From a virus, in IMG/VR virus record IMGVR_UViG_3300048580_000440, positions 1-46,282 of that record: a stretch of DNA of 46,282 nucleotides; one strand, given 5' to 3'. How positions within the stretch are numbered: position 1 is the first letter of the stretch; the number at the start of each line of letters is the position of its first letter. The position numbers were made by a program, and so were the translations under genes. Below are positions 1 to 36,857 of this stretch, one piece after another. The notes below the pieces were generated by a model. It saw only the letters and a list, made by a program, of their open reading frames with translations, made no database searches and was not told the origin of the DNA.

Positions 1-1392
1 TTGGAACGACTCATTGAGGAACGACGCCCCAGCCATGCGATAGGCCGCTGTGCCGGATGCGGCCATGCCAGCGGTCACGCCGCCGATGAGACCGCCGATG
101 CCCGCGCCGACTGGAACAGTGACAATTTCTTCAGGAGTGAGGGCTTGGGGGCCAGCAAAGCCAGCGGCGGCAGCAATAGCGGCACCAGTAGCGGCACCTG
201 CTTTAGTCCCCGCCATACTCGCAGGAATTGCCGCAGCCATCGAGCCAAGCGAGAAGCCAAGGCTCCCACCTGCTTCACGGAAACTCTCACCCACGGACGA
301 GGATGTTCCCGCTGCCTGATTCGCTGCCGTCTTGGCCTGCATCTCCGCGTTGAACGCATCCGCCTCGGCAAATGCCTTCTTGGCACTATCCGAATACTGG
401 TCGGGACGCTCCATGCCTTCGACCAGTTGGTAGAACGCGGCAGGCGCGGTGACGCCAAGTCCTTTAACAGCATCCCAGATGCCCGAAATCGTATCCTTCG
501 CGTTAAAAAAATCTTTCTTTTCAGCCTCCTGCCTCACCCCCTCAATCGCCTGCCCCGCCTCCACCTTCTTCTCGCCGGCCAGTGCGCGGGCCTGGGCTAT
601 TTCCGCCTGACGCGCCTGAATTTCCTGCAAGCGAGCGGCGGGAACACCGCCAGCCAATTCCTGACCTAACGCTTTCTCTTCCTCCATCGCCGATTGATCG
701 GCGGCGTCGGCTTCATCACGCTGAGCAACGGCGGTCTGCACCGGATCAACCGGGGCGGGAGCCTCACGGCTTGACCACCAGGATTCATGGTCGGTGTTGC
801 CAAGATTCGTCGCCTTGACCTTGGCGTCGTATTTCCGCTGCTCCAAGTCGGCGCGCTCGGCGCGGTATTCGTCGTCGGCGACGAGTTGGGCCTTGAGCTG
901 CTTGTGTCGAGGATCGGTCTCCGCCAGCACGGAACCCTCCAGCTCGATGTCCTCCCGAGCCTTCTTGCTCAACTGCTTCGCCTTGAACGCCGGATCTTCC
1001 AACCGCAAAGCGTGCGAGTCGTATTCGGCGGCCGCCGTGCGTTTCTCGCGGTCAAACAGACTCTTGCGAGCGAATCCGCCGACGTTCGGATCTTCCGTGT
1101 AGAGTTCCGCGTCGAACTGCTCGATGCCGTTGCGGGTTTTTCTCAGTAGGCGGCCATTGTCGCCTCCCCATGTTTCGTGGGGAGCGGAAGATTCGTTGTC
1201 CTTCGATGCGATCGCCCGCTGCTCGTTGGCAATCGCTACGCGGTCCCGCTTGTTGATGGATTCATTGGTGATAAACGACTTCCAAATCGGTGTGCCGGAC
1301 CCTCCGCCACCACTCCGTTCACTCGGATTCGCATCGACGGCTTCGCCACGCGCAACGCCTGGCCCTTTCTGGCGGAAAATTTCATCATCCAT
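1..1392 (-). CDS. Large virion-associated protein (C-terminus cut by window start)
   Basis: An open frame of 464 codons runs from ATG at 1392 off the window edge with no stop. The N-terminal 100 residues are polar and disordered-looking. Residues about 110-290 are charged, Glu/Lys/Ala-rich and probably coiled. From about residue 360 there are Gly/Ala-rich hydrophobic stretches (GGSLGFSLGSMAAAIPAS, then a GAAIAAAAGFAG-like run and GIGGLIGGVTAG) like membrane-active segments of internal or ejection proteins. An in-frame TGA lies just upstream, which fixes the start. By position (after terminase, before portal if the genome is circular) and composition it is probably an internal virion or DNA-ejection protein. 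No enzymatic motif is visible in the part present. Confidence 0.7.
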   Translation of the reverse strand, partial: MDDEIFRQKGPGVARGEAVDANPSERSGGGGSGTPIWKSFITNESINKRDRVAIANEQRAIASKDNESSAPHETWGGDNGRLLRKTRNGIEQFDAELYTEDPNVGGFARKSLFDREKRTAAAEYDSHALRLEDPAFKAKQLSKKAREDIELEGSVLAETDPRHKQLKAQLVADDEYRAERADLEQRKYDAKVKATNLGNTDHESWWSSREAPAPVDPVQTAVAQRDEADAADQSAMEEEKALGQELAGGVPAARLQEIQARQAEIAQARALAGEKKVEAGQAIEGVRQEAEKKDFFNAKDTISGIWDAVKGLGVTAPAAFYQLVEGMERPDQYSDSAKKAFAEADAFNAEMQAKTAANQAAGTSSSVGESFREAGGSLGFSLGSMAAAIPASMAGTKAGAATGAAIAAAAGFAGPQALTPEEIVTVPVGAGIGGLIGGVTAGMAASGTAAYRMAGASFLNESFQ

Positions 1393-3066: not shown

Positions 3067-3494
3067 TGGTGGACCACAGGGGAGTCGAACCCCTGTCCAG
3101 AACTGATTCTCCTCACAACTTCAAACATGCTTATCTCCAACCCGGATTTTACAAGGCGGCCGGAGTCCTTGAGGGCGACTGGCTTCATCTTTCGATTCTT
3201 CCAATAGCCTCCACCACTGAATCATCGGCAGGACTCAGACTGTCTTTTGATCCGCTTTGAAGTCTCCCAGTTATCGGATCATTCCGGGGACCGTTACCTT
3301 CCGAGGCTTAGGCTGCGGCCAGTTCACCAGCTTCGGCATAACCGAAACGGGCAAGGATGGCGTCGGCTTCTGCGACGGTCGGGGCGAACTGATGTTTGCC
3401 ATTTGGATTCGTGATCGGCTTTTAAGAGGCCAACCGATCAACCTCTGCATGCTATCGTGAGGGCCTTCTGTTCTGTCGAAACCGGAAGTGGCCC
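3067..3494 (-). ncRNA. ssrA: Transfer-messenger RNA (tmRNA)
   Basis: The 428-nt minus-strand RNA has a 7-bp acceptor stem, GGGCCAC at 3488-3494 with GTGGTCC near 3071-3077 (one G-U), and an encoded CCA at 3067-3069. The T arm is AGGGG-TTCGACT-CCCCT. The 5' tRNA-like part has the typical GGTTTCGAC. The segment CGGTTGGCCTCTTAAAAGCC closely matches the first pseudoknot of bacterial tmRNAs. About 12 nt after it a frame opens at Gly-Lys and ends GELAAA-stop (TAA at 3308-3310), the small hydrophobic ending expected of a proteolysis tag. The tag would be about 30 residues, long for the family. tmRNA rescues stalled ribosomes; here it is phage-encoded, next to two tRNAs. Confidence 0.9.
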
Positions 3495-3529: not shown

Positions 3530-3607
3530 TGGGACCAGAAGTCGGGATTGCACCGACGACCTGCGGTTTAGAATTCCGCCGCTCTCTCATTGCTGAGCTA
3601 TTCTGGG
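3530..3607 (-). tRNA. tRNA-Arg (anticodon TCT)
   Basis: A 78-nt cloverleaf: acceptor CCCAGAA/TTCTGGT with the first pair mismatched, D stem GCTC/GAGC with a 10-nt loop, anticodon arm GCGGA-ATTCTAA-ACCGC (TCT at positions 34-36, last pair A-A), T arm GTCGG-TGCAATC-CCGAC, discriminator C and an encoded CCA. It would read AGA codons. It lies 35 nt upstream of the tmRNA on the same strand, probably in one transcript. The imperfect acceptor and anticodon stems are typical of phage tRNAs. Confidence 0.85.
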
Positions 3608-6744: not shown

Positions 6745-6901
6745 AGAATCGCGCTAAAATCCCGGAAAAACCTCAGTACTTGTTATAATGATGTTAATGC
6801 TGAATCGGTGTTCCACGCTCTAGCCCTACTTTTTAGGGCGTTCCACGGGCCTTTCGTCTATCTGATTTCACAAAAACAGCGTCTAACACTGTTCCACGGG
6901 G
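6745..6901. other. Intergenic region with GTTCCACG repeats and a hairpin
   Basis: Non-coding. It has three direct copies of GTTCCACG (6810, 6840, 6891) and an inverted TGTGGAAC at 6919-6926 just inside the next gene. A hairpin GCCCTA-CTTTT-TAGGGC lies near 6823-6839 and a TATAAT hexamer at 6784-6789, without a convincing -35. It could hold protein-binding repeats or a terminator for the minus-strand gene at 6902. Confidence 0.4.
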
Positions 6902-7408
6902 TTATTTTTTGGAATCCTGTGGAACATTTTCCACCCGCGCGATCAGATTTTTCATCGCCGCAAGCATCGCCGGGGACTGGAGGGTGCGCATGTTGTCCTC
7001 TTCGGACTTGTTCACGACCGTCTGGTGGATCTCTTGGCGTTGGACGGGCAGGCCGACCTGATACGCGAGCCAGAGCTTTGCCCCAGCTTCTCGCGCTCGC
7101 CAGTCTGGCTCGTATCCGCCCTCCTTGGTCCGCTTGTCTGCCGTGAGCAGGCTTTTGATCGTCTCCCCTACCTCGGCGCTCGAAACGGTGTCGGCGAGCA
7201 CCTCGGCGATTTGGCGGTTAATCTCGCCTGGGCGGGAGAGGCTGGTGATCGGCCTGCGGCCTTCCGGGAGTTTCGAGTTGATTGCTTCAACGAGGTTTAT
7301 AACGCAAATTAGTTGCAAATGTAGTTTTGATGCAAGAACGAAATCCTCGCGTCCGCGCACGCGAGGCGATTCATATTTTTGAATCATGATCCGACGATGC
7401 GACATCAT
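6902..7408 (-). CDS. Unrecognised protein, possible small terminase or DNA-binding protein
   Basis: 168 residues starting directly after the upstream stop (TGA-ATG at 7409/7408). The sequence is largely helical: SLSRPGEINRQIAEVLADTVSSAEVGETIKSLLTADKR, then WRAREAGAKLWLAYQVGLP and a C-terminal helix PAMLAAMKNLIARV. The size and helical organisation would suit a small terminase or an HTH protein, but no motif proves it. Confidence 0.55.
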   Translation of the reverse strand: MMSHRRIMIQKYESPRVRGREDFVLASKLHLQLICVINLVEAINSKLPEGRRPITSLSRPGEINRQIAEVLADTVSSAEVGETIKSLLTADKRTKEGGYEPDWRAREAGAKLWLAYQVGLPVQRQEIHQTVVNKSEEDNMRTLQSPAMLAAMKNLIARVENVPQDSKK

Positions 7409-7774
7409 TCAAACAATCGTTTGACTTTTTCTAAAGTCAGCAAAGAACGAATCGCCCGAAAGAGTCTCCCGATATTCAGGAATGACCGTCAACGCCTCAT
7501 GAACATCTTTCGGATCGAGCCAATCCCGGCAAACGATATGCCACGCCTCGATGTAGATTTGAAGAATCCTCTGCTGCTTGGTGGCCTTGCTCCAGTAATG
7601 GCAACACGCTCCGGTTGAGTCGGTGAGTCCGAGATGGCGGAACCAGTCCTTGTCGTCGTTCAGATGAGGGATCACGACGATGCGCCCCGGAATTCCGATT
7701 CTCGATGACATGGGCGTCCATGCGATCATGGCGAGTTTGATCGGAACATCTCCGAATGGTTTTGGTGTTTTCAT
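7409..7774 (-). CDS. Unrecognised 121-residue protein
   Basis: A soluble protein with a basic N-terminus, the hydrophobic core RIGIPGRIVVIPH, then HLGLTDSTGACCHYWSKATKQQRIL and an acidic helical C-terminus. No family is recognised. It is translationally linked to the gene at 6902-7408 and lies downstream of the helicase and the repeat region at 7789-7989, so a role in replication or packaging is possible but unproven. Confidence 0.55.
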   Translation of the reverse strand: MKTPKPFGDVPIKLAMIAWTPMSSRIGIPGRIVVIPHLNDDKDWFRHLGLTDSTGACCHYWSKATKQQRILQIYIEAWHIVCRDWLDPKDVHEALTVIPEYRETLSGDSFFADFRKSQTIV

Positions 7775-13850: not shown

Positions 13851-13982
13851 AGCGAACGCCTAGCTCTGGCACCCTCACCGCTAACCACTAAAACACTATG
13901 CAAACCGAAAATGATACATCGAAGCCCGAAACCGAACTCAAACAGGAGACTGGTGAGGGTTGCCAGGAGCGACTTGTTCTGC
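13851..13982 (+). other. attC8 recombination site
   Basis: R'' AGCGAAC (13851) complements GTTCGCT at 13258. The stem GCT-CTGGCA-CCCTCACC pairs with GGTGAGGG-(T)-TGCCAG-(G)-AGC; spacer GACTT; R' GTTCTGC (13976). It is the longest site (132 bp), with the next gene's ATG (13898) in its loop. Confidence 0.88.
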
Positions 13983-14371
13983 CTCTTATGATGCTGGACG
14001 AGTCGATGCCGGAAACCTATGTGGCACCAATCAACATAGACGGAGAGCTATGGTATGAAAAACAATGGGAACTTGTGGAACTCGCCACGGCATTGAGATA
14101 CGAACCCGACGACGATCTACGGAAAGAGGCGGAAGCCGAATACAAAGCGGCGATGGTGGGTGTCGCATTTGAAGACCGGCCGTACTTCGCACAATCGTCG
14201 TTCGCGCTCGGTGCGGCCTTCAAGGATGTCACGCCACGGGAAGTGTATCACTGCCACCCGAAAACGTGGGAGAAAGTGCCCGACGATGCGAAAGCCAAGT
14301 TCGAGGTGCGCGTCCAATCGGAGTATTCATTTCTTGGGCAGAACGCTAGGGATCTGGCACCGCCGCCCTAG
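13898..14371 (+). CDS. Unrecognised cassette-9 protein, paralogue of the gene at 29063
   Basis: 157 residues from ATG 13898 in the attC8 loop; the native cassette start may be ATG 13988 (MMLDESMPETY), where similarity to the second copy begins. The body is acidic: EKQWELVELATALRYEPDDD, then PYFAQSSFALGAAFKD and YHCHPKTWEKVPDDAKAKFEVRVQSEYSFLGQN. The last block is nearly identical in the protein at 29063-29524. No family is recognised. The 3' end enters attC9. Confidence 0.65.
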   Translation: MQTENDTSKPETELKQETGEGCQERLVLPLMMLDESMPETYVAPINIDGELWYEKQWELVELATALRYEPDDDLRKEAEAEYKAAMVGVAFEDRPYFAQSSFALGAAFKDVTPREVYHCHPKTWEKVPDDAKAKFEVRVQSEYSFLGQNARDLAPPP

Positions 14372-15354: not shown

Positions 15355-16320
15355 ATGAGAACGATTGAAGAAGTAATGAAGGCTTTCGAAACGGCTGCGC
15401 TGAATGCGGGGCTGGCTCGGAATACTCGAAAAACCTACGGGCCGACGATCGCGGAGTTTGCGGGGATGATGAAGCGTGGAGAAATCACCGGGGTGCAAGA
15501 CTATCTGAACCACCTGGCCAGCGTGAAAAAGATTTCATCGAACAGTGTGTGGCACGCTTTGAATCCACTGAAGTTTTTCTATGAAAAAGTTTTGCTGAAG
15601 GAGTTTGGGGAATTTGATCTTCCGAAGCGCAACCGATCGAAGCCAATGCGCTCGGTGCTCACGATGCGCCAAATCCTCGGCATGATGCAAACCATGCCAA
15701 GGGTGCCGCGATTGCAAGCGGGACTGCTGGCAGGAACCGGCATGCGGATCGAAAGCGACATGCTGACGCTGCGGCTGAAGGATGTGCGGATTGAGGATCG
15801 GGTGTTGACAATTTATGAGGCCAAGGGCGGGAAGTCCCGCGCGCTGCGGATTCCTGAATTCCTGGTGGCGGATCTGGAACAACAAATCATGGCCTGCCGG
15901 ATGCAATGGGAGCGCGACCGCGCAAGCGGCATCATCTGCCCGCACAATGAGGAAAGTCTGATGCGCAAGTTTGGCCGCCGAACCTTTGGGACGCTGCCAT
16001 GGTATTGGCTTTTTCCATCTCAGAAAGTCCATGGGACGGATCGTTGGCATGCGACTGACAAACGACTGGTGACGGCGCTAAAGGAGGCTGCGGAACTGCA
16101 AGGCATCACGCAACGGGTGAACCCGCATGCGCTCCGCCATAGCTATGCCACCGGCCTACTGCGCGATGGGGTGGACATCAAAACAATTCAAGAACAGCTC
16201 GGCCATACGAGTTTGGAAACAACACAGCTTTACTTGCATACCGCCGGCAAGACGACGGTGGATAGCCCGCTGGATGCGGAAGTAGCGAGAAATATTATCC
16301 CTTTACGAAGAACCGCATGA
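15355..16320 (+). CDS. intI: Integron integrase (IntI family tyrosine recombinase)
   Basis: 321 residues. After an N-terminal SAM-like DNA-binding domain, the catalytic domain has GTGMRIES (first Arg), then [40 protein letters not shown] (His/Arg) and [15 protein letters not shown] (His, nucleophilic Tyr). Between them is the patch that marks IntI proteins, [21 protein letters not shown], and the family-typical ending SPLD. IntI excises and inserts gene cassettes at attC and attI sites. It reads in the same direction as the cassettes, immediately 3' of the array, unlike the usual divergent layout. The stop overlaps the next gene. Confidence 0.94.
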
Positions 16321-16499: not shown

Positions 16500-16684
16500 A
16501 AAAAGGACTCGAATCCATTCCGACGGTAAAAGACGCGCATTCGCCATCTGGTCAGCCGTTCTACGCCCCGAAGTCCTACGCTGATTTGCCGGACTGCCCG
16601 GTTTGCAAATTCGGGACACCGATGGAGAAAAATGGAAAGCTCGTCTGCATTGATTGTAAGGCGGTGCTTAAAAATGTTCGGTAA
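16496..16684 (+). CDS. Small zinc-ribbon protein
   Basis: 62 residues. CPVC and CIDC near the C-terminus (residues about 34-55) form a plausible zinc ribbon: CPVCKFGTPMEKNGKLVCIDCK. It is the last gene of the intI operon. Function unknown; such ribbons usually bind nucleic acid or act as small adaptor proteins. Confidence 0.65.
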   Translation: MKKGLESIPTVKDAHSPSGQPFYAPKSYADLPDCPVCKFGTPMEKNGKLVCIDCKAVLKNVR

Positions 16685-16706
16685 ATGTTCTGTGAAAGCC
16701 GGGATT

Positions 16707-16767: not shown

Positions 16768-16784
16768 CTTTACAAAACGTAAAG
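16768..16784. promoter_or_regulatory. 17-bp palindromic control element, copy 7
   Basis: CTTTACAAAACGTAAAG, a near-perfect inverted repeat 12 bp before the tmRNA-like attP core. No start codon follows on the plus strand, so here it may serve integration or regulate the convergent units. Confidence 0.6.
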
Positions 16785-16793
16785 AAGCACCCC

Positions 16794-16824
16794 TTGAGGG
16801 GTTCGACTCCCCTCGCCTCCACCA
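16794..16824 (+). other. Probable attP: 3' end of a host tmRNA (or tRNA) gene
   Basis: GAGGGG-TTCGACT-CCCCTC is a perfect T arm, followed by GCCTCC and ACCA, exactly the 3' end of a tmRNA or tRNA, with no 5' half nearby. Phages that integrate into such genes carry this identity block next to int so the host gene is restored. It lies 8 bp from the integrase stop codon. TTCGACT in the T loop favours tmRNA. The acceptor sequence differs from the phage's own tmRNA. Confidence 0.75.
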
Positions 16825-16831
16825 TATAGAA

Positions 16832-18016
16832 TCAAGGTTTTTTCGCTGTGTTCGGTAAATGTTCGGTGATCGGCGAAAACGCGGACACTGAAAACCAAGC
16901 CTCCGCTTCGGCGGGACTCTTGGCATCCAGGTAGGACTTCTTGATTTCATCCTCCGAATTTCCGGCCTCCATGGCCGTGACGCCCATTCCTTTCAGGGCG
17001 CACCGGAATGAAATGAAAGATGCCCGCAGGGCATTGTCCTTCCATCCGCCGATGAATGCGCCCAGCCGGGCGGTTTCTGCCACGATCTTCTTGCCGTCGC
17101 TCCGGGTGGGGGCGATTGTAGCGTGCATGGGGCCTTGGGGCTTCCTGAGCGGCAGCAGGATCGCCTTGAGTGCCGCGCACATGGGAATAACCCTCCGGCG
17201 CTTCATCTTGGCCGTGGCAGGGCTTACAACGATCTGATCGCGCTCGAAGTCAATGTCGCTCCAATCCAGCGGAGGTTTCCGACTCCCGGCGATCGGGCAA
17301 ATCTCATCGGTCCTGATGCCCGCCAGCGCGGCGCCCGCGAGCCATGCCCGGAAATCCGGGCGAACATTGGCCAGCAAGACGCGCAGCTCGTCGGGCGTGT
17401 AGGTTTCTGGCACCGTGTCAGTCACCATCGGGATCTCCGCCTTCTCCGCCGCCGTGCGTTCATCGGGGAGGTATTCCCTGAGTCGGCACCACCGGAAGAA
17501 CGTCACCAGCGACGCCCTGATGTTGCGGCGGGTCCGGTTTTTGTTTTTCGGGTTGGATTCCATATAATCCTCGATGTCCTTCACGGTGATGGATGCGAGG
17601 TCGGATTTCCCGTGGATGTCGATGAACGGCTTGACGTGCTTTCGGATGGTTCGGACGTTCTGAGTCGAACGACCGGCGTTCTTCTCCTTCAAAGCGAGAA
17701 ATTCGGTGTAAGCGTCAATGGCGAGTTTCTTAGGTGCTTTCCGGGAATGCCATAGCAGGAACTCCTCGACGTGCTGGAGTGCCCCCGCCTCGACAATGCG
17801 TTGCAGTTTCCGGATTTCATCCGCTTCCAGGATGTTTAGATCCAGACTGCCACGGTAAATCGTCTGAGCGTGCTTCTTCGCGTCCCGCTTGGCTTTTTCG
17901 AGCGTGCTGCGGGTCACGTCCTTGCCTCCCTGCTTGAACCGCCAATACTCTCTTCCGGATGGGTGCCGCCATGGATAGACGTTCACGGAAACGGACTTGT
18001 ATTTTACGACGTGCAT
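16832..18016 (-). CDS. int: Phage site-specific integrase (tyrosine recombinase)
   Basis: 394 residues. The N-terminal arm-binding-like part carries HPSGREYWRFKQGGKDVTRSTLEKAKRDAKKHA; a core-binding helical domain spans about 110-200. The catalytic domain has AGIRTDEI (Arg), NALRASF (Arg of the HxxR box with Asn in place of His) and AGNSEDEIKKSYLD (Tyr). It would insert the phage at the site matching 16794-16824. Its 3' end abuts that site. It is distinct from IntI at 15355 and lacks the IntI patch. Confidence 0.87.
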   Translation of the reverse strand: MHVVKYKSVSVNVYPWRHPSGREYWRFKQGGKDVTRSTLEKAKRDAKKHAQTIYRGSLDLNILEADEIRKLQRIVEAGALQHVEEFLLWHSRKAPKKLAIDAYTEFLALKEKNAGRSTQNVRTIRKHVKPFIDIHGKSDLASITVKDIEDYMESNPKNKNRTRRNIRASLVTFFRWCRLREYLPDERTAAEKAEIPMVTDTVPETYTPDELRVLLANVRPDFRAWLAGAALAGIRTDEICPIAGSRKPPLDWSDIDFERDQIVVSPATAKMKRRRVIPMCAALKAILLPLRKPQGPMHATIAPTRSDGKKIVAETARLGAFIGGWKDNALRASFISFRCALKGMGVTAMEAGNSEDEIKKSYLDAKSPAEAEAWFSVSAFSPITEHLPNTAKKP

Positions 18017-29056: not shown

Positions 29057-29150
29057 AACTCTATGACCACGAACGATGCTCAACCACCCTCCGACTCCAT
29101 CGAAGCCAACAAGGCCGCTGGTGGGGATTGTGTCTCACGCCTTGTTCTGC
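29020..29150 (+). other. attC site of the second, remote locus
   Basis: R'' TGAGAAC (29020), then stem GTG-GACAC-ATCCCCACC pairing with GGTGGGGAT-(T)-GTGTC-(T)-CAC, spacer GCCTT and R' GTTCTGC (29144). Same layout and extrahelical bases as the nine sites in the main array, about 14 kb away. The start of the next gene (29063) lies in its loop. Confidence 0.85.
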
Positions 29151-29524
29151 CTCTTATGATGCTGGACGAGTCGATGCCGGAAACCCACATGGCCGCAATA
29201 CACCCTGAAACAGGCGAAGTATGGGAAGAGAAGCAATGGGAACTTGTCGAGCTTGGCACAGAATGGAGTTATGAATCCGACAAGGATCTACGCAAAGAAG
29301 CCGGAGTAAAATTGCAAAATGCAAGAAGAGGAGTCCTGTTCGCGCCTCGTCCATACGTAGCAAAGTCGTCGTTCATACTCGGTGCGGCCTGCAAGGATCT
29401 TCCGCCGCTACGGGAAATGTATCACTGCCACCCGAAGACGTGGGAGAAAGTGCCTGATGATGCGAAAGCTAAGTTCGAGGTGCGCGTCGCTTCGGAGTAT
29501 TCATTTCTTGGGCAGAACAGTTAA
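29063..29524 (+). CDS. Unrecognised cassette protein, paralogue of the cassette-9 gene
   Basis: 153 residues; ATG 29063 is in the attC loop and the frame crosses the junction at 29144, so the native start may be the ATG at 29157. From there it resembles the protein at 13898-14371: MMLDESMPET and EKQWELVEL are shared and YHCHPKTWEKVPDDAKAKFEVRV is nearly unchanged. The first 40 nt after the crossover are the same in both. The stop follows R'' GCAGAAC (29512). Function unknown. Confidence 0.65.
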   Translation: MTTNDAQPPSDSIEANKAAGGDCVSRLVLPLMMLDESMPETHMAAIHPETGEVWEEKQWELVELGTEWSYESDKDLRKEAGVKLQNARRGVLFAPRPYVAKSSFILGAACKDLPPLREMYHCHPKTWEKVPDDAKAKFEVRVASEYSFLGQNS

Positions 29525-35520: not shown

Positions 35521-36126
35521 TTAGCAGGATGAGGCCGCAGGGACGCGGCCAAGGATGGGGATTGAAAACGTAACCTTGCAGGCGATGTTGGCGAGCTGCT
35601 TGGACTCACCCGTCTTGCTGGACGTGCCGTTGTTGCGCGTGGTTCCGACGGATTTCGAGCTTCCGTTCTTCTCGGACGTGCCGTTGCTGGTGGAATTCTT
35701 CGTGTTGGTGGAGCTTCCGTTTTTCTCGGACGTGCCGTTGCTGGTGGACTCCTTCGTATTGGTGGAGGTGCCTTTCTTCTCGGACGTGCCGTTGCTGGTG
35801 GACTCCTTCGTATTGGTGGAGGTGCCGTTCTTGGTCGAAGTCCCGTTTGAGAACGATTTCTTATCGCTCGTGGAGTTCCCGTCCTTCGTGGAAGTCCCGT
35901 TTGAGAACGATTTCTTGTCGCTTGTGGAGTTCCCGTTCTTCGTGGAAGTCCCGTTTGAGAACGATTTCTTGTCGCTTGTGGAGTTCCCGTCCTTGGTGGA
36001 AGTCCCGTTTGAGAACGATTTCTTGTCGCTTGTGGAGTAACCGTTGTTGGTCCGCGTTGAATTCTCCGACGAATCGGTTGATGACTTGCCTAACGTCGTG
36101 CTGGTGGTGTCGAGGGTGTTGGCCAT
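35521..36126 (-). CDS. 18-residue-repeat Ser/Thr/Asn/Lys-rich protein
   Basis: 201 residues, mostly about seven consecutive 18-residue units of the type STSDKKSFSNGTSTKDGN, later STNTKESTSNGTSEKKGT. The sequence has no hydrophobic core and would suit an extended beta-solenoid or linker. The last 20 residues (IACKVTFSIPILGRVPAASSC) differ. It is in the tail region. Neighbour 36135-36857 has 18-residue repeats of a different sequence, so the two may form one structure. Confidence 0.75.
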   Translation of the reverse strand: MANTLDTTSTTLGKSSTDSSENSTRTNNGYSTSDKKSFSNGTSTKDGNSTSDKKSFSNGTSTKNGNSTSDKKSFSNGTSTKDGNSTSDKKSFSNGTSTKNGTSTNTKESTSNGTSEKKGTSTNTKESTSNGTSEKNGSSTNTKNSTSNGTSEKNGSSKSVGTTRNNGTSSKTGESKQLANIACKVTFSIPILGRVPAASSC

Positions 36127-36134
36127 GGTGGATT

Positions 36135-36857
36135 TTAGGAAGTGCTAGAGGAGGCTGATGCTGAGGATGTGAAATTCTCCGTGCTCTGCGTGGCATCGTG
36201 GATGGCGGTGCTGTTTCCCCTGTCGGTAACGTCGCCCCTTTCCGTTGTTTTGTTGTTGTCGGTAGAATCGTTGGTGTCGCTCGACGTGCTGAAATCCGTT
36301 GTTTTGTTGTTGTCGGTAGAATCGTTGGTGTCGCTCGACGTGCTGAAATCCGTTGTTTTGTTGTTGTCGGTAGAATCGTTGGTGTCGCTCGACGTGCTGA
36401 AGTCCGTTGTTTTATTGTTGTCGGTGGAGTCGTTGGTGTCGCTCGACGTGCTGAAATCCGTGCCGTTGCTTGTATCCGACGAGATGTTCGTGTCGGTGGA
36501 CGTGCTCGCGTCGGTGCCGTTGCTTGTATCCGACGAGATGTTCGTGTCGGTGGACGTGCTTGTGTCGGTGCCGTTGCTCGTATCCGACGACGTGTTCGTG
36601 TCGGTGGACGTGCTCGTGTCGTCCGAATGCCGCTCCTCCGTGACCGTGGTCCCGTCGATTCCGCTGTTCACGTCGGTAGAAACCAACACGAGGTCGGATG
36701 ACTGCCACGTTTGAACCAGCGTCACCTCGAATCCGACTTCTTTTGGAAGTTCCGCCATGATGCCTTGCTCACGCGCAAGCGCCACGCCTTTGGAGATGTT
36801 GGCGACGGTGTTCGCAATGAACGCAGGGAGATCGGCGATAGGGATGATGTTTTCCAT
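36135..36857 (-). CDS. 18-residue-repeat Ser/Thr/Asp-rich protein
   Basis: 240 residues. The first 70 residues are a non-repeat N-terminus (PIADLPAFIANTVANISKGVALAREQGIMAELPKEVGFEVTLV). About seven 18-residue units then follow (TSTSTDTNISSDTSNGTD, FSTSSDTNDSTDNNKTTD), encoded by 54-bp DNA repeats at 36241-36456 and 36457-36618. The C-terminus is STENFTSSASASSSTS. The N-domain probably anchors it to the virion and the repeats form a fibrous arm. Confidence 0.78.
   Translation of the reverse strand: MENIIPIADLPAFIANTVANISKGVALAREQGIMAELPKEVGFEVTLVQTWQSSDLVLVSTDVNSGIDGTTVTEERHSDDTSTSTDTNTSSDTSNGTDTSTSTDTNISSDTSNGTDASTSTDTNISSDTSNGTDFSTSSDTNDSTDNNKTTDFSTSSDTNDSTDNNKTTDFSTSSDTNDSTDNNKTTDFSTSSDTNDSTDNNKTTERGDVTDRGNSTAIHDATQSTENFTSSASASSSTS

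Follow-up and report, generated by a model that had tools for sequence, protein, structure and literature searches.

The window analyzed here, a 46,282-nt stretch of viral DNA (IMG/VR record IMGVR_UViG_3300048580_000440), contains the tail of a tmRNA gene next to an integrase gene and, elsewhere, a complete tmRNA gene. This arrangement raises the questions of whether the tail serves a temperate phage as its attachment site (attP), which host gene such a phage would enter, and whether its own tmRNA has any bearing on integration. We put a probability of about 0.93 on the reading that the tail is the attP of a temperate tailed phage, with a map of ~61.5 kb, whose insertion site is the 3′ end of ssrA in a Verrucomicrobiia-type host.

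The attP core and the flanking recombinases

The features on which the analysis draws are as follows.

16797..16824, plus strand: attP core, the last 28 nt of host ssrA (exact host copies and a partial RF00023 match)
16832..18016, minus strand: tyrosine integrase, 394 aa (PHROG 1 integrase, E 1e-19)
16675..16695, plus strand: left arm-type repeat, a pair of units spaced 11 bp apart, TGTTCGGTAA and ATGTTCTGTGA (repeat family D19)
16849..16869, plus strand: right arm-type repeat, a pair of units spaced 11 bp apart, TGTTCGGTAA and ATGTTCGGTGA (within the integrase gene, at its 3′ end)
15355..16320, plus strand: second tyrosine recombinase, 321 aa, across the core from the integrase (PF00589, E 5e-30)
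3067..3494, minus strand: complete one-piece tmRNA (ARAGORN and Rfam RF00023, 97.6 bits, model positions 1-374)
3530..3607, minus strand: tRNA-Arg (TCT), beside the tmRNA (ARAGORN and Rfam)

The core, 16797-16824, reads AGGGGTTCGACTCCCCTCGCCTCCACCA and consists of a T stem-loop, the 3′ acceptor strand, a discriminator A, and CCA. Upstream of its T arm there is no tmRNA or tRNA body, and only the tail of a tmRNA is present. The three assemblies that span the core (the window, G003, and G004) are in agreement. Immediately 5′ of the block shared with the host gene, host ssrA has GGAC whereas the phage has CTTG, and the shared block therefore begins at 16797; it amounts to 29 nt if the next T, common to most matching hosts, is counted. 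A sequence-only reading of the window had placed the site at 16794-16824. The T arm, acceptor strand, and CCA of that span are as described, but its first three bases are phage sequence (TTG, compared to GAC in host ssrA). The same reading had described a lone T arm and CCA end adjoining the integrase gene, and these are present, with the integrase stop codon at 16832, 7 bp from the CCA.

Two tyrosine recombinases flank the core. Of these, the predicted integrase at 16832-18016 is most likely the enzyme that acts on attP. This 394-aa protein has no match to the Pfam catalytic-domain model PF00589, and it is at most 45% identical to the non-sister relatives that we found. The arm-type repeats form two pairs, one on each side of the core, with 174 bp between the pairs. 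The motif TGTTCGGTRA occurs in three exact copies in the whole window, all of them at attP, and the fourth unit there is one base off. This layout suggests that the paired repeats are integrase arm sites. When the repeats were subjected to a random-placement test, 1 of 60 random sites scored equally high (21/21), possibly from tandem arrays elsewhere in the window, and support for the arm repeats was taken from the exact-motif count instead of this test.

We assign the 16797-16824 region as attP from these sequence features. In the model that we propose, the integrase (16832-18016) would bind the paired repeats on both sides of the core, and the 28-nt phage core would recombine with the identical end of host ssrA at a crossover position that we infer. 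One junction would then carry a complete ssrA with a phage-derived 3′ end and the other only a lone 28-nt fragment. By this route, integration at ssrA is expected to work.

The host gene that carries the core

A pattern search of 384 genomes, sampled from the class of a Verrucomicrobiales genome, returned exact copies of the 28-nt core in at least 10, counted among the matches listed. In all 10 matching genomes that we inspected, the copy closes a complete tmRNA gene (ssrA) at its 3′ end, so that at least 10 ssrA genes of Verrucomicrobiia agree with the phage core at 28/28 nt. A 29-nt pattern starting at the phage G was found in 0 of 388 genomes, because this G differs from the host ssrA base at that position. 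Since the exact 28-nt match is to one gene end, recurs in many genomes of one class, and is accompanied by the expected flanking repeats, we take a chance origin to be excluded. The host is probably Verrucomicrobiia-type, placed to class level, with its genus inferred.

Several other searches bear on the host. The sampled genomes contained no integrated copy of the window phage (attL and attR), and none of the genomes searched was seen to harbor a close relative of it. Comparison by tblastn of the integrase or terminase with isolated phages gave no useful host lead, and the fetched ssrA neighborhoods of the core-matching genomes had no tblastn match to the window integrases.

The closest comparison comes from G657, a 54.9-kb contig of a relative phage (IMGVR_UViG_3300031951_000204) with the same structural gene set. 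Its integrase is 45% identical to that of the window and lies beside a tRNA-type 3′ fragment; its paired arm repeats are 175 bp apart and enclose a different RNA-gene end, GACGGTTCGATCCCGTCCTCGTGCA, which was not found in 76 genomes. No tmRNA, tRNA, or second recombinase was found in G657, and the second recombinase of the window had no tblastn match there beyond the first recombinase.

Other elements use the same end of ssrA. The 28-nt core also occurs in an unrelated phage, G005, next to an integrase and paired repeats that belong to that phage; the G005 genome is probably complete, as its start is repeated at its end (long terminal repeat). Integrases of the same subfamily as that of the window adjoin ssrA in three genomes of the host class (G443, G421, and G514), and other chromosomal integrase relatives in the class adjoin tRNA-Asp, Leu, Thr, and Val genes. 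Two genomes carry islands that end in a displaced core copy: a 4.3-kb island at ssrA in G448 and, in G456 (contig 3, 35158-91913), a 56.7-kb region running from ssrA to the displaced copy and encoding many large proteins. In both, an integrase-like gene, called by eye from translation, lies beside the displaced copy. None of the G005, G448, and G456 elements has a tmRNA of its own. Used by two or more unrelated phages and by several islands, ssrA is a busy integration site in Verrucomicrobiia. The sequence-only reading had proposed that the core is the attP for a host tmRNA/tRNA gene and that genomes be searched for it at the 3′ end of ssrA; the search found the 28-nt block at the end of ssrA and other elements occupying the site, and the exact ssrA ends together with the adjoining same-subfamily integrases bear the proposal out.

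Two other accounts of the core have to be weighed. It could derive from a tRNA-Ala gene rather than ssrA, as the two are alike in G3-U70, A73, and similar acceptor stems, and phage tRNA-Ala genes contain 30-nt stretches that are 93% identical to the core. We consider this extremely unlikely: the exact copy lies in ssrA in every one of the 10 matching genomes inspected and was seen in tRNA-Ala in none, and it is ssrA that the same-subfamily integrases adjoin. Alternatively, the window could be a prophage or a tandem prophage junction, in which case the lone core would be attR or the join of two elements. A tandem prophage array would indeed look alike, with phage genes on both sides of the core. 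However, in the sister contig G652 a match to the leftmost 6.8 kb of the window is followed by 15.2 kb absent from the window and then by a match to its rightmost 10 kb. G652 thereby joins both window ends, and the map closes as a circle of ~61.5 kb with the core inside. The terminase on the left and the head genes on the right also belong to one phage, both sets being found in G657. We therefore regard a prophage origin as highly unlikely and read the window, from its contig structure, as free phage or concatemer and not as a prophage end. The earlier proposal of a free (circular or packaged) phage stands, as G652 closes the map.

Some further observations concern the window and its sisters. 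Compared to the window, G003 and G652 are nearly identical over ~5 kb and then diverge by ~9-23% within a few hundred bases (window 1-800 and 6751-7433), a mosaic pattern. A paralogous gene pair, 13898-14371 and 29063-29524, lies ~15 kb apart and is 76-92% identical in blocks; neither member has a PHROG match. Two adjacent minus-strand genes between the tail and head genes (35521-36126 and 36135-36857) encode Ser/Thr/Asn-rich proteins with 18-aa repeats (54-nt tandem repeats).

The phage tmRNA and its relation to the integration site

The sequence-only reading had also described a full phage tmRNA with a different acceptor, which the Rfam match (97.6 bits) and the acceptor sequence confirm. 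The acceptor stem is GGGCCAC/GTGGTCC in the phage tmRNA compared to GGGGGCG/CGCCTCC in host ssrA, pairs 4-7 differing on both strands, while both share the outer acceptor pairs, G3-U70, A73, and CCA. Measured against the core, the T arm GGACAGGGGTTCGACTCCCCT is identical (and is also that of host ssrA), and 4 of the 7 bases of the acceptor 3′ strand differ. The predicted tag is (A)GKHQFAPTVAEADAILARFGYAEAGELAAA, from a 30-codon frame with an ELAAA end (ARAGORN); tags of host-class tmRNAs mostly end in LALAA. Overall identity to ssrA of the host class is 48-56%, indicating that the phage tmRNA is not a recent copy of it. The gene adjoins the terminase gene, ~13.3 kb away from attP and in the opposite orientation. 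An identical tmRNA gene is present in three sister contigs. We considered the lack of substitutions across the sisters as a sign of selection and rejected it, because divergence is patchy and the surrounding 5 kb are nearly identical.

Copies of a motif, TTGACGAAACGTAAAG, precede start codons by ~36 bp both in the window (3060, 3777, 6743, and 43386, minus strand) and in G657 (23153, 24720, 46502, and others); the motif probably serves the phage as a promoter or regulator site. The tRNA-Arg/tmRNA pair has a copy ~155 bp upstream of it, and another copy follows the tmRNA directly. A copy with two mismatches, at 16769-16784, is 12 bp from the attP core and directed at it.

As the core equals host ssrA from the T stem to the CCA, integration should regenerate a complete ssrA. 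This bears on the earlier suggestion that the phage tmRNA covers for the host gene, that is, maintains ribosome rescue as a functional backup whenever ssrA is altered by integration or excision. There is a precedent for such damage, as CP4-57 is reported to remove U357 of E. coli ssrA when it excises and so to inactivate the tmRNA (PMC10107115), and a tmRNA and an ssrA attP occur together in the window lineage whereas G657, the single comparison available, has neither. However, the core would restore ssrA exactly, U70 included; G005 and the G448 and G456 islands target the same end of ssrA, and none of them encodes a tmRNA; and tmRNAs are also found in phages without integrases (PMC9004378). 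The suggestion is left unsupported, and we consider a backup role very unlikely. Scarcely more can be said for other functional links between the tmRNA and the ssrA attP, by which acceptor pairs 4-7 would have been rewritten so that rescue survives an excision-altered ssrA, or so that the phage's own tmRNA is a poor target for the integrase; we give these little credence. It is likewise quite unlikely that the tmRNA arose through capture of host ssrA during imprecise excision at attP. Such an origin has been suggested for the ssrA genes of phages (PMC9004378), and the T arm GGACAGGGGTTCGACTCCCCT is shared with host ssrA, but the gene stands beside tRNA-Arg at its distance from attP and on the other strand, has only 48-56% identity to class ssrA, and differs in acceptor stem and tag. 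Use in the lytic phase, discussed for other phage tmRNAs (PMC9004378), would be a simpler explanation than cover for host ssrA. On this analysis, the phage tmRNA is most likely ordinary translation cargo for lytic growth, independent of the integration site.

Comparison with known ssrA-targeting elements and tmRNA-carrying phages

tmRNA genes are a well-known location for attachment sites (PMC4383910). Islander islands, CP4-57 (in E. coli ssrA), and CP4So (in Shewanella) resemble the window phage in combining a tyrosine integrase with an ssrA 3′ fragment in attP that rebuilds the gene, and they carry the displaced fragment at the far end, as proposed here (PMC4383910, PMC10107115, PMC5148205). 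The window phage differs from them in its host class, in an integrase whose non-sister relatives found here reach at most 45% identity, and in having a complete tmRNA gene of its own.

One survey counted a tmRNA in 402 of 18,146 phage genomes (PMC9004378). Like Melnitz and some crAss-like and Streptomyces phages (PMC9004378), the window phage has a complete tmRNA, in its case together with a tRNA gene; in contrast to Melnitz, which has no integrase (PMC9004378), it is temperate by its gene content and would target ssrA. A limited literature search found no published phage with both an ssrA attP and its own tmRNA.

Phage integration at ssrA is thus already known, and what the window adds is its placement in a poorly studied host class and its unusual pairing with a phage tmRNA. 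The core match points to a probable host class for a phage lineage that had none assigned, and the combination of a tmRNA with an ssrA target in one temperate phage offers a convenient system in which to ask why tmRNAs are carried by phages.
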